From contig CALMYH010000158.1 of the NCBI GenBank assembly GCA_937873395.1, positions 1 to 40,104 on the forward strand: a stretch of DNA of 40,104 bases, in the 5' to 3' direction. The stretch comes from an uncultured Burkholderiales bacterium (GTDB lineage Bacteria > Pseudomonadota > Gammaproteobacteria > Burkholderiales > Burkholderiaceae_C). Numbering within the stretch: position 1 is the first letter of the stretch; each line of letters starts with the position of its first letter. A program made the position numbers and the translations under genes. Positions 8,098-39,674 of the stretch are shown here, in pieces. The notes beneath the pieces were generated by a model. The model was not told the origin of the DNA, ran no database searches, and saw only the letters and a program-made list of their open reading frames with translations.

Positions 8098-8189
8098 TGG
8101 CGGAGAAGGAGGGATTCGAACCCTCGATACAGTATGAACTGTATGCCGGATTTCGAATCCGGTGCATTCGACCACTCTGCCACCTCTCC
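8098..8189 (-). tRNA. tRNA-Ser (anticodon CGA)
   Basis: A 92-base class II tRNA on the minus strand. The seven-base-pair acceptor stem (GGAGAGG / CTTCTCC) contains one G-U pair; the discriminator is G and CCA is encoded. The anticodon arm is CCGGA-TTCGAAA-TCCGG with anticodon CGA, reading UCG. A long variable arm (TACAG/CTGTA) is typical of serine tRNAs, and the T arm holds GGTTCGAATCC. It is convergent with serS. Confidence 0.96.
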
Positions 8190-31697: not shown

Positions 31698-31773
31698 TGG
31701 TGCCGGAAAGAGGAATCGAACCCCCGACCTTCTCATTACGAATGAGCTGCTCTACCGACTGAGCTATTCCGGC
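31698..31773 (-). tRNA. tRNA-Thr (anticodon CGT)
   Basis: A 76-base tRNA on the minus strand with acceptor stem GCCGGAA/TTCCGGC, discriminator A and encoded CCA. The anticodon loop TTCGTAA gives CGT, reading ACG. It is close to E. coli thrW, including the mismatched top of the anticodon stem. It starts 24 bases after the fbp stop codon. Confidence 0.96.
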
Positions 31774-36754: not shown

Positions 36755-37666
36755 CTAGGCGGTCAGGAAGTTCTCCACCAGCCCCGCCAGCGCCTGTGGC
36801 TGATCGTGGTGCAGCATGTGGCCGGCGTCCCGCACCTCGGCTTCGCTCAGGCGAGGCACCGTCCGGATGCGCTCGCGGTATTCGGCCAGGGTGTACTTGC
36901 CGCGCCACCACAGACCCAGGCTGTCGTCGCTGGCGGTGATGCTCAGGGTGGGCGCGGTGATGCGGCGGAAGATCTCCAGCACCTCATCGACCCGGTACAG
37001 CTGGGCACTGACGACCTTGTGGGCGGGGTCTCCGAGGATGCGCCAGCGCCCCTGGGCATCGGGCCGGGCCCAGTGCTGCGCCAGCCATTCGGCCTTGTCG
37101 CGATCCAGCCGCGGGTTGGTCTTCATGAGACGGCGGGCCACGGCCTCCACATCGTCGTAGTCCTTGAGCGTGGTCTGACCCTGCCGCAAGGCGCGGATTT
37201 CGTCCAGCCACTGACCGTAGCGGCCCGGGGCCTGGGCAGGCCGCGTGGCCGGCATGCCGAAGCCCTCCAGGTTCACCAGGCGTCGCACGCGGGCCGGCCG
37301 AATGCCGGCGTACACCATGGCCACGTTGCCGCCCATGCTGTGTCCGACCAGGTCGACGGCGCGGTCCGGCACCAGATGGTCGAGCAGGGCGTCAAGGTCG
37401 GCCAGGTAGTCCGGGAACCAGTAGCTGTCGACCGCAGGGCCTTCGCTGCGGCTCAGACCGAAGCCGCGCCAGTCGGGCGCAATGATCCAGCGGCCGGCGG
37501 CCATGGCGTCGACCATGAACTGCCAGGAAGCGGCCACGTCCATCCAGCCGTGCACCAGCACCAGTGGCGCGACGTCCGGGTCGGGCGCTCCCCAGACACG
37601 CAGGTGGTATTGCTGGTCACGGATCGGGAGGAAATCGCTGCGCGAGGGGCGGATGACTTGGTACAT
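36755..37666 (-). CDS. Alpha/beta hydrolase
   Basis: A 303-residue hydrolase. VHGWMD at 38-43 forms the oxyanion hole, GHSMGG has nucleophile Ser110, and AGHMLHHDQP near the end supplies the catalytic His; the acid is likely the Asp of TASDD. The substrate is unknown; relatives include esterases, haloalkane dehalogenases and thioesterases. I start at ATG 37666 (MYQVIRPS). Two ATGs at 37675 and 37678 are alternatives, and the frame continues far upstream as an antisense shadow of the acyl-CoA synthetase. TATGAT lies seven bases before the chosen start. It is divergent from the acyl-CoA synthetase with a 34-base gap. Confidence 0.88.
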   Translation of the reverse strand: MYQVIRPSRSDFLPIRDQQYHLRVWGAPDPDVAPLVLVHGWMDVAASWQFMVDAMAAGRWIIAPDWRGFGLSRSEGPAVDSYWFPDYLADLDALLDHLVPDRAVDLVGHSMGGNVAMVYAGIRPARVRRLVNLEGFGMPATRPAQAPGRYGQWLDEIRALRQGQTTLKDYDDVEAVARRLMKTNPRLDRDKAEWLAQHWARPDAQGRWRILGDPAHKVVSAQLYRVDEVLEIFRRITAPTLSITASDDSLGLWWRGKYTLAEYRERIRTVPRLSEAEVRDAGHMLHHDQPQALAGLVENFLTA

Positions 37667-37700
37667 TCCACGCATCATAGAAAACACCAGGAGACAAGGC

Positions 37701-39674
37701 ATGCGCACGAGTCGTCGCAGCGACAGCGGCCGGGCCGCGGTGGATGCCCACGCCGCCCTGCATCGGGACTTCGGCTGGGCGTTGCCCGAATGGTTCAACA
37801 TGGCCCAGGTGTGTTCGCGCCGCTGGGCCGAGGATGCCGCCCACGCAGCCCGCACCGCCATCATCGCGAGCAGCCCGGGCCGATCCGACCGGCACCACAG
37901 CTATGCCGAGCTCCAGGCGCAGGCCAACCGGCTGTCCAACGCCCTGATCGCACTGGGCGTGGGGCGGGGCGACCGGGTGGCCATCGTGCTGCCCCAGCGG
38001 TTTGAAACCGCGGTCGCCTACATGGCGGTGCTGCAGATGGGGGCCGTGGGCATGCCGCTGTCCCAGTTGTTCGGGCCGGAGGCACTGGCCTACCGCCTGC
38101 ACGACAGTGAAGCCGTGGTGGCCATCTGCGATGCCAGCACCCTGGCGGCCGTCGAGACGGTCCGCAGCGAGTGTCCGGCCTTGCGTGCGCTCCTTGCCGT
38201 CGAGGGGGCCGATGCAGGCCGCTCGGTGCTGGATTGGGGCTCGGCGCTGGCCGACGCGGCCGACCGGTTCGATCTGGTGCAGACCCGCGCCGAGGAAGCG
38301 GCCGTGCTCATCTACACCAGCGGGACCACCGGCAACCCCAAGGGTGCGCTCATTCCGCACCGGGCCCTGATCGGCAACCTCAGCGGCTTCGTCTGCAGCC
38401 AGAACTGGTTCGGCTTCGACCCGTTCGATGCCTCGGTGCCATCGCAAGCGGTGTTCTGGTCGCCGGCGGACTGGGCCTGGACCGGTGGCCTGATGGATGC
38501 CTTGCTGCCCACGCTGTACTTCGGACGTCCCATCGTCGGCCACAACGGCCGTTTCAGCCCCGAGCTGGCCTTTGAGCTGCTGGAACGCCACCGGGTCACC
38601 CACAGTTTCCTGTTTCCCACCGCTCTCAAGGCCATGATGAAGGCCTGCCCCCAACCACGCCAGCGCTACGACATTCGCCTGCAAGGCCTGATGAGCGCCG
38701 GTGAGGCAGTGGGCGACGCGGTGTTTGCCTGGTGCGAGCAGCAGCTGGGCATCACGGTCAACGAAATGTTCGGCCAGACCGAGATCAACTACATCGTGGG
38801 CAACTGTTCGATGCGGCTACCCGCCGCAGCGTCGGGCCGCCCCAAGCAAGGCGGCGCCCCCTCGGGGGGCAGCGACCCGCGCAGCGGTGGAGCGTGGGGG
38901 CAAACGGCTGGGTCTGCCGCCGGGCCGTCCCAAGGCGGGCCAGCCCCCTTGGGGGGCAGCGACCCGCGCAGCGGTGGAGCGTGGGGGCAAACAGGTTGGC
39001 CGGCCAGGCCTGGCAGCATGGGCAAGGCCTATCCGGGCCATCGGGTGGCGGTGATCGATGAGGCGGGCAACGAGTGTCCCGTCGGTGTGCCCGGCGATGT
39101 GGCGGTGCACCGGCTGGACGTGCATGGCCGGCCCGATCCGATCTTCTTCCTGGGCTACTGGAAGAACGAGGCCGCCACGCGCGCCAAGTTCACGCCGGAC
39201 CCGGCGGCCACCGAGGCCCAGCGGGCCGAATTCGACGAGGTGCTGGGCGTGCCCCTGCACAGCTGGTGCCGCACCGGTGATCTGGCGGTCAGGGATGCCG
39301 ACGGCTACCTCTGGTACCAGGGTCGGGCCGACGACGTGTTCAAGGCGGCCGGCTACCGCATCGGGCCCAGCGAGATCGAAAACTGCCTGGTCAAGCACCC
39401 GGCCGTGGCCAACGCCGCCGTGGTGCCCAAACCGGACCCCGAACGCGGCGCCGTGGTCAAAGCCTACGTGGTGCTGGCGACGGGGTTTGCGCCGGGCGAG
39501 GGGCTGGTGAAAGAACTGCAGGCGCACGTCAAGGGCAAGCTGGCGCCCTACGAATACCCGAAAGAGATCGAGTTCGTCGACGCCTTGCCCATGACGACCA
39601 CCGGCAAGGTGCAGCGCCGCGTCCTGCGGCTGCAGGAAGAGGCTCGCTATCAGGCCGGCAGGGCTTCACGCTGA
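37701..39674 (+). CDS. Acyl-CoA synthetase with an in-frame repeat insertion
   Basis: A 657-residue AMP-binding enzyme of the acetyl/medium-chain acyl-CoA synthetase branch. The ATP loop is VLIYTSGTTGNPKG at 202-215, NEMFGQTEINYIVGNCS is the acyl/AMP site, and WCRTGDLAV with GRADDVFKAAGYRIGPSEIE forms the hinge. The C-terminal TTTGKVQRRVLR carries the catalytic Lys. Relatives read NCS then xWPxRPGSMG; here 61 residues of Gly/Ser/Pro-rich repeat lie between (372-432), encoded by 38814-38996. Whether the enzyme still folds is unknown. ATG 37701 has AGGAGA seven bases upstream. Length without the insertion is about 596. The substrate is not assignable. Confidence 0.85.
   Translation: MRTSRRSDSGRAAVDAHAALHRDFGWALPEWFNMAQVCSRRWAEDAAHAARTAIIASSPGRSDRHHSYAELQAQANRLSNALIALGVGRGDRVAIVLPQRFETAVAYMAVLQMGAVGMPLSQLFGPEALAYRLHDSEAVVAICDASTLAAVETVRSECPALRALLAVEGADAGRSVLDWGSALADAADRFDLVQTRAEEAAVLIYTSGTTGNPKGALIPHRALIGNLSGFVCSQNWFGFDPFDASVPSQAVFWSPADWAWTGGLMDALLPTLYFGRPIVGHNGRFSPELAFELLERHRVTHSFLFPTALKAMMKACPQPRQRYDIRLQGLMSAGEAVGDAVFAWCEQQLGITVNEMFGQTEINYIVGNCSMRLPAAASGRPKQGGAPSGGSDPRSGGAWGQTAGSAAGPSQGGPAPLGGSDPRSGGAWGQTGWPARPGSMGKAYPGHRVAVIDEAGNECPVGVPGDVAVHRLDVHGRPDPIFFLGYWKNEAATRAKFTPDPAATEAQRAEFDEVLGVPLHSWCRTGDLAVRDADGYLWYQGRADDVFKAAGYRIGPSEIENCLVKHPAVANAAVVPKPDPERGAVVKAYVVLATGFAPGEGLVKELQAHVKGKLAPYEYPKEIEFVDALPMTTTGKVQRRVLRLQEEARYQAGRASR
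38814..38996 (+). repeat. 183-bp in-frame repeat insertion of two palindromic units
   Basis: Exactly 61 codons between ATG 38811-38813 and TGG 38997-38999 in the acyl-CoA synthetase. Each unit contains a GCCCCC/GGGGGGC hairpin and a common 42-base core, identical in both units, at 38864-38905 and 38951-38992; the offset is 87 bases (29 codons), so both copies encode the same peptide (GGSDPRSGGAWGQT). All three forward frames are open across it. Similar GC-rich repeats occur in intergenic regions of Comamonadaceae as I recall; this is from memory. The ends are set by where the protein alignment breaks. Confidence 0.8.

Follow-up and report, generated by a model that had tools for sequence, protein, structure and literature searches.

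An in-frame repeat array in an acyl-CoA synthetase gene

The window analysed here, a stretch of 40,104 nucleotides from an uncultured Burkholderiales bacterium, carries towards its end an ORF, open from 37482 to 39674, that encodes an AMP-binding acyl-CoA synthetase (ACS) according to Pfam. The region shared with homologues begins at 37719, within this ORF. Between the peptide segments NCSM and WPARPGSMG lies a GC-rich stretch holding two copies of a repeat at a spacing of 87 bp. The features of the locus are as follows.

37719..39674, + strand: AMP-binding acyl-CoA synthetase gene, given as the homologue-shared region including the stop; Pfam AMP-binding and AMP-binding_C flank the insert
38814..38993, + strand: in-frame insertion, 60 codons net, corresponding to protein residues 366-425 and absent from 26/30 same-genus loops; pLDDT falls below 50 over exactly these residues
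38818..38901, + strand: repeat unit 1, of the stem type seen at this site in single-unit relatives (L231, L232, L234)
38823..38854, + strand: hairpin 1 of unit 1 (approximate), formed by the conserved GGGCCGCCCC loop and a variable stem, which is imperfect here
38856..38871, + strand: hairpin 2 of unit 1 (GCCCCCTCGGGGGGC), nearly invariant
38876..38888, + strand: hairpin 3 of unit 1 (CCGC-GCA-GCGG), which covaries across genera
38906..38988, + strand: repeat unit 2, differing from unit 1 in its first stem and having the same 3' half

Elsewhere in the window, Rfam identifies two tRNA genes on the minus strand (31701-31773 and 8101-8189).

A preliminary description, made from the sequence alone, had given the sequence, coordinates and open frame of this gene correctly, as well as two copies 87 bp apart with an identical 42-bp core, which proves to lie within an aligned repeat of 63 nt at 90% identity. 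It had also held that all three forward frames are open through the insert, as is the case. Its figure of 61 codons was right as to an in-frame insertion and one codon too large: measured against empty orthologues from FGQTE to PG (90 versus 30 residues), the net gain is 60 codons. Both units are trailed by AAAC, a tetranucleotide found at no other array-bearing locus of the same genome, which suggests that the pair arose by tandem duplication.

The proposal that the enzyme might be damaged is not borne out. The gene keeps its frame and retains the residues that are invariant across 30 aligned homologues, including TSGTTG, FGQTE and GK, whose roles as motifs we presume, and from its sequence the enzyme appears undamaged. 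The suggested alternative of a tolerated surface loop agrees with an AlphaFold model built from the 30-homologue alignment, in which pLDDT drops below 50 at residues 366-425 (block means 25-28) against an overall mean of 78.6, the remainder being confidently predicted. As modelled, the insert is a disordered loop of 60 residues on an otherwise intact enzyme.

Anatomy and folding of the repeat unit

The unit measures about 84 bp and comprises three hairpins and a conserved 3' end, arranged as a variable stem 1 around the constant GGGCCGCCCC loop, a near-invariant GCCCCC/GGGGGC hairpin, a small hairpin 3 and finally GCGTGGGGGC. Among 55 units from the same genome, both sides had changed in 8 of 9 stem-1 pairs, and 112 cells were changed on both sides compared with 43.6 in shuffles, none of 500 of which reached that value. 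A set of 33 units taken across genera behaved similarly, with changes on both sides in 7 of 8 stem-1 pairs and 4 of 5 hairpin-3 pairs, 93 cells changed on both sides (38.1 expected), and a covariation score of 0.280 against 0.123, slid controls staying at or below 0.125; pairing was retained in only 65.6% of the stem-1 cells of this set. Two of five whole-structure covariation measures were unexceptional in both sets, namely how many pairs had changes on both sides (equalled or exceeded in 51 of 500 shuffles for the 55 units and 48 of 500 for the 33) and the further pair types (84 and 126 of 500, respectively). Folding energy was no lower than in shuffles (z -0.01 and z -0.73), and covariation, not energy, is taken here as the evidence for structure. 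Compensatory change thus supports hairpins 1 and 3, whereas hairpin 2, being nearly invariant, offers no such test. RNAalifold further predicts pairing of GCCCC in loop 1 with GGGGC at the 3' end, which together with stem 1 would form a pseudoknot whose columns vary too little for covariation to test.

That compensation could be read as the mark of an RNA function, the repeat being maintained as a regulatory element or structured RNA and present in coding sequence as a by-product. We regard this as unlikely: the compensatory changes in hairpins 1 and 3 and the possible pseudoknot speak for it, but the same compensation also fits a single-stranded DNA substrate and so does not exclude mobility, and the occupancy of sites varies among species of one genus. 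Nor did a search of Rfam with eight sources and the window stretch match the repeat to a known structured RNA at gathering score.

The units have a GC content of 80%, and 20 of 55 are free of stops in all six frames, compared with 17.6 in mononucleotide shuffles. Freedom from stops is mostly a matter of composition, and the "selected stop-free design" of the preliminary description is not supported; it is a low-charge frame that looks selected instead (see below). The inference of recent amplification, which had been drawn from the identical cores, stands only in part. Once the AAAC is set aside, the core differs little from the consensus of the repeat across the genome (the exact 38-mer occurs with T in 8 of 55 units and with C in 15 of 55), so that its identity alone is no proof of recent amplification, and it is the shared AAAC that suggests a tandem duplication.

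Distribution across genomes

A search of the same genome, as had been recommended for the core, showed the repeat to be dispersed well beyond chance, with 46 blastn matches to the 183 bp at E<=0.001 and at least 86 matches to R1, a covariance model derived from the 55 units; the latter count is a lower bound from scoring 150 of 6452 first-look candidates. Copies are intergenic as well as intragenic, single or in tandem arrays, and in both orientations. Several contigs of this draft genome (C8, C61, C70, C155 and others) begin or end within a unit. Such breaks render unit numbers uncertain, and indicate that the repeat disrupts short-read assemblies.

In a search of 30 genomes, R1 detected the repeat in all 18 of the genus and in none of the 12 that represent other families within the order. 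Within the family, a draw of 120 genomes, searched with stricter filters and 38 candidates scored per genome (so that copies per genome are lower bounds), placed it in 102 genomes and 101 of 119 genera, G053 and G054 being among those without it. It also occurs on three plasmid records, and in none of the phage records searched. On a plasmid of Rhodoferax antarcticus (L259:761-1993), the repeat lies within a gene annotated as a Fic family protein (WP_075587959.1).

Copies within genes and the frames they use

Of 65 arrays recovered by blastn from fetched loci of the same genome (seven of them shorter than 60 nt), 22 lie in frame and free of stops within ORFs that have Pfam matches. Two of the 86 R1 matches fall outside this set, one at C105:50-124, where the locus was left out, and one at C149:6482-6556 (L168), which blastn missed. 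Candidate coding arrays were pre-scored by an ad hoc codon script; Pfam then matched 21 of 26 submitted ORFs, and five of six weaker candidates, being unmatched, were dropped as genes. The genes concerned encode TrpE, an OHCU-decarboxylase/M20 protein, a topoisomerase, GcvT, MeaB, an HrpA-like helicase, sulfite reductase, nitronate monooxygenase, HypD, PutA (two arrays, at two contig ends), a UvrD-like helicase, acyl-CoA dehydrogenase, a MetX-like hydrolase, a molybdopterin-binding dehydrogenase (partial unit), CobO, an M20 peptidase, CobQ (two arrays), the window ACS, RsmG and a second AMP-binding enzyme (partial unit). Some of these names are more specific than the Pfam label, and we assume them from the sequence. 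In L098 and L105 the array is situated just beyond the Pfam envelope, and in other genes between two domains. The two PutA fragments (L105 and L107, at the ends of contigs C44 and C149) carry one element each, and are possibly one gene with two inserts that assembly has split at the repeats. The genic share varies between samples, and 22/65 may not be typical: among 20 listed high-scoring copies of genome G001, only three, as judged from the flanks, sat in a single open frame with coding-like sequence to either side.

Arrays within genes show a bias of frame. Twelve of 15 arrays in the same orientation as the gene are read in the APSGGSD frame (11 by script and HypD by eye), the other frames accounting for two and one; all seven reverse arrays are read in the SLPPEGA frame (five by script, two partial ones by eye). 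If translated, the inserts would add peptides of the type APSGGSDPRSGG to ACS, CobQ and TrpE. The two frames used have mean net charges of +1.6 and +1.2 over the 55 units, which include copies inside genes, as against +3.7, +5.0, +5.0 and +5.5 in the remaining four. The preferred forward frame has stops in more units (7 of 55) than either of the other two forward frames (3 of 55 each). Genic copies are read in the frames of lowest charge, and these are not the ones most free of stops. This bias would reflect selection on the encoded peptide, although a bias of insertion may produce it instead.

Occupied and empty sites within the genus

Searches with L089 and L094 each returned orthologous matches in 17 of 18 genomes of the genus, and the comparison reveals sites in several states. 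The TrpE site is filled in the genome of the window and empty in 15 others shown; that in CobO is filled in the same genome and in G004, and empty in ten shown. CobQ (L094:3583-5739) contains elements at two separate sites, each independently empty or filled in relatives. Site 1 is empty in four loci (L201, L209, L210, L228), has one unit (+84 bp) in six relatives and two (+159) in the genome of the window, and shows 15 extra bp in L211; in L221 (G004) it is occupied by four tandem units in the orientation opposite to that in the other filled relatives, adding 345 bp, a multiple of three. Site 2 is empty in seven and filled in the genome of the window, G001, G007, G008 (several units) and G009, while L216 (G012) has a short remnant that starts like the reverse element (GCCCCCACGC) and is apparently a decaying insert. 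At filled sites the edges of the element are ragged.

For four coding sites, 65 of 66 comparisons (all alignable loci, several per genome included) differ in length from the window genome's copy by a multiple of three. The lone exception, a difference of 94 in CobO of L214, appears to be a gap in the flank alignment, as the length of its site matches other empty sites. At an intergenic control site, 10 of 12 comparisons also gave multiples of three, so that length modulo three discriminates only weakly by itself.

The acyl-CoA synthetase loop across the family

In the genus, 30 ACS loops could be read, 26 at a baseline of 30 residues and four with the element; L231, L232 and L234 each have a single unit, of the stem type of unit 1 in the window. 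The statement of the preliminary description that relatives lack the insert thus holds for these 26, but not for the family at large: beyond the genus, where the best 80 of at least 589 ACS homologues were taken and 79 loops read (L043 being left out), R1 units occupy this loop in 18 of the 80. Twelve are in the plus orientation and six in the minus; L025, one of the twelve, has both, since in its loop (L025:5075-5337) two plus units come after a minus unit. In a quick tree with 86 rows, on which loci named Hydrogenophaga lie near the window, presence of the element requires at least 13 changes (six of them forced by starred branches), or 16 when orientation is considered, counts that cannot separate gain from loss. 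The six minus-orientation loops stand apart on this tree and require six changes, four forced by starred branches.

Repeated insertion into this loop must be weighed against one ancient insertion, inherited with many losses. Plus copies in seven loci (L011, L012, L013, L025, L028, L051 and L054) share the sub-variant GCAAGGC(A/G)CGGCCCCC, and as these belong to several genera, one old plus insertion followed by losses is possible for them, the more so because the tree does not distinguish gains from losses. As an account of the loop as a whole, however, ancient insertion is rather improbable. The minus loops are scattered on the tree, the minus copies shown have differing stems and need separate events, L025 combines both orientations, and CobQ site 1 has been filled in both orientations within one genus.

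Interpretation

These observations are best reconciled, at a probability of roughly 0.8, if the insert is a pair of units from a repeat dispersed in this bacterial family that is non-autonomous, forms hairpins and stays in frame in its genic copies. The likeness to Rickettsia palindromic elements surviving inside genes, which the preliminary description had proposed, is upheld by the dispersed copies, the empty and filled orthologous sites, the 22 genic arrays and the disordered insert. In the mechanism we propose, some machinery would copy or move the folded element into new sites, most likely as a single strand; genic copies would persist only in tolerant surface loops, with a net length divisible by three and in a frame whose peptide is near-neutral and rich in Gly, Pro and Ser, not one rich in Arg; arrays would then grow by tandem duplication, resident copies would overwrite them, and their decay would leave new loops behind. 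Of these steps, only the last ones are directly supported by sequence.

A broader proposition is more tentative, and we consider it possible but on balance doubtful: that a family-wide mobile element with no known transposase re-enters the same enzyme loops either way round, its folded single strand (stem 1 together with the GCCCC/3' GGGGC pairing) serving as the guide, and constitutes a steady source of flexible protein segments screened by charge. As to a target duplication, which either reading might lead one to look for, direct repeats of at least 4 nt lie at the junctions of 31 of 52 arrays, compared with 23.8 in mismatched pairs, a small excess with no sharp class. No conserved downstream target is evident, the flanks being merely AT-leaning.

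Elements of the REP/BIME type, moved by a RAYT (Y1 tyrosine) transposase, provide a more conventional model that we find highly improbable here. REPs are likewise palindromic, dispersed and at times intragenic (PMC3733652), and the genome of the window has one Y1_Tnp gene. The locus of that single RAYT-like gene (L121; G000:C106:4910-5200), however, shows only 15-18-nt matches to the unit; none of the tags GTAG, CTAC, CGTC and GACG was seen near a given end in more than 6 of 65 arrays; the units, with their three hairpins and about 84 bp, exceed the 20-40 bp given for REPs (PMC3733652); and Y1_Tnp is found in 75 of 102 genomes that have the element and in 13 of 18 that lack it, frequencies that indicate no association. 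Membership of the REP (GTAG/CGTC) group was rejected on the rarity of the terminal tag and the absence of a RAYT (Y1_Tnp) association. An assembly artefact or a decayed gene is scarcely credible: several draft contigs do end inside units, but a one-unit insert exists at the same loop in three other genomes, one of which (G169, with L231) comprises three contigs, and the ACS frame and homologue-invariant residues are kept.

Within the portions of the literature examined, protein-coding palindromic elements have so far been characteristic of Rickettsia and Wolbachia, and REP cases are scattered among other bacteria; here, many copies per genome occur over 101 of 119 genera of one family, and named bacteria of free-living habit are among the relatives. 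The same sites can be compared in filled, empty, reversed and decayed form, which makes the movement of the element, the rate at which proteins gain segments, and the kinds of peptide they tolerate testable, the charge bias being a concrete prediction as to the last. A family-specific repeat of this kind is also relevant to those who annotate and assemble these genomes.

Relationship to known palindromic elements

We judge the repeat to be a new family of protein-coding palindromic elements, set apart from RPE, WPE and VeiPR1 by description, the sequence check being that against Rfam. Verminephrobacter eiseniae, the source of VeiPR1, is presumably a betaproteobacterial relative, a family placement that we assume. 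VeiPR1 is a palindromic repeat making up about 2.3% of that genome and is called unique to V. eiseniae in one account (PMC3975124); it may be related to the repeat described here, a comparison that is by description only. No description of the present repeat was found in a search of open-licence literature, in which the available part of one source (PMC2755013) treats CRISPR alone.

Small MITE-like repeats, ERIC/RU-1 and Correia (NEMIS), have been found fused in frame to ORFs according to the relevant passages of PMC2229807, and resemble the present element in that respect; unlike them, it shows no convincing target duplication. In Thauera and R. conorii, intragenic REPs of the GTAG and CGTC superfamilies contribute peptides that reach 43-82 aa, and recB of two Xanthomonas has one at about the same site (PMC3733652). 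Like these, the present repeats are dispersed palindromes able to add peptides to proteins, but they have no terminal tag, a larger unit and no association with Y1_Tnp.

The closest functional parallel is to the elements of Rickettsia and Wolbachia. RPEs occur in 19 reading frames, and an RPE-bearing guanylate kinase is still active (PMC2229807, in part); WPE-like inserts are found in frame in addA, addB and priA (PMC4224334, in part). In common with both, as these sources in part describe them, the present repeats are palindromic, lie in frame in conserved genes and are also intergenic, and in functional terms they constitute a dispersed palindrome, within and between genes, with in-frame copies whose orthologues are empty. 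They differ in taxon and lifestyle, the relatives of the window being named as free-living Comamonadaceae, and in several properties of their own, including three-hairpin units about 84 bp in length, covarying stems, tandem arrays, a preference for low-charge frames, and the reuse of one site in both orientations.
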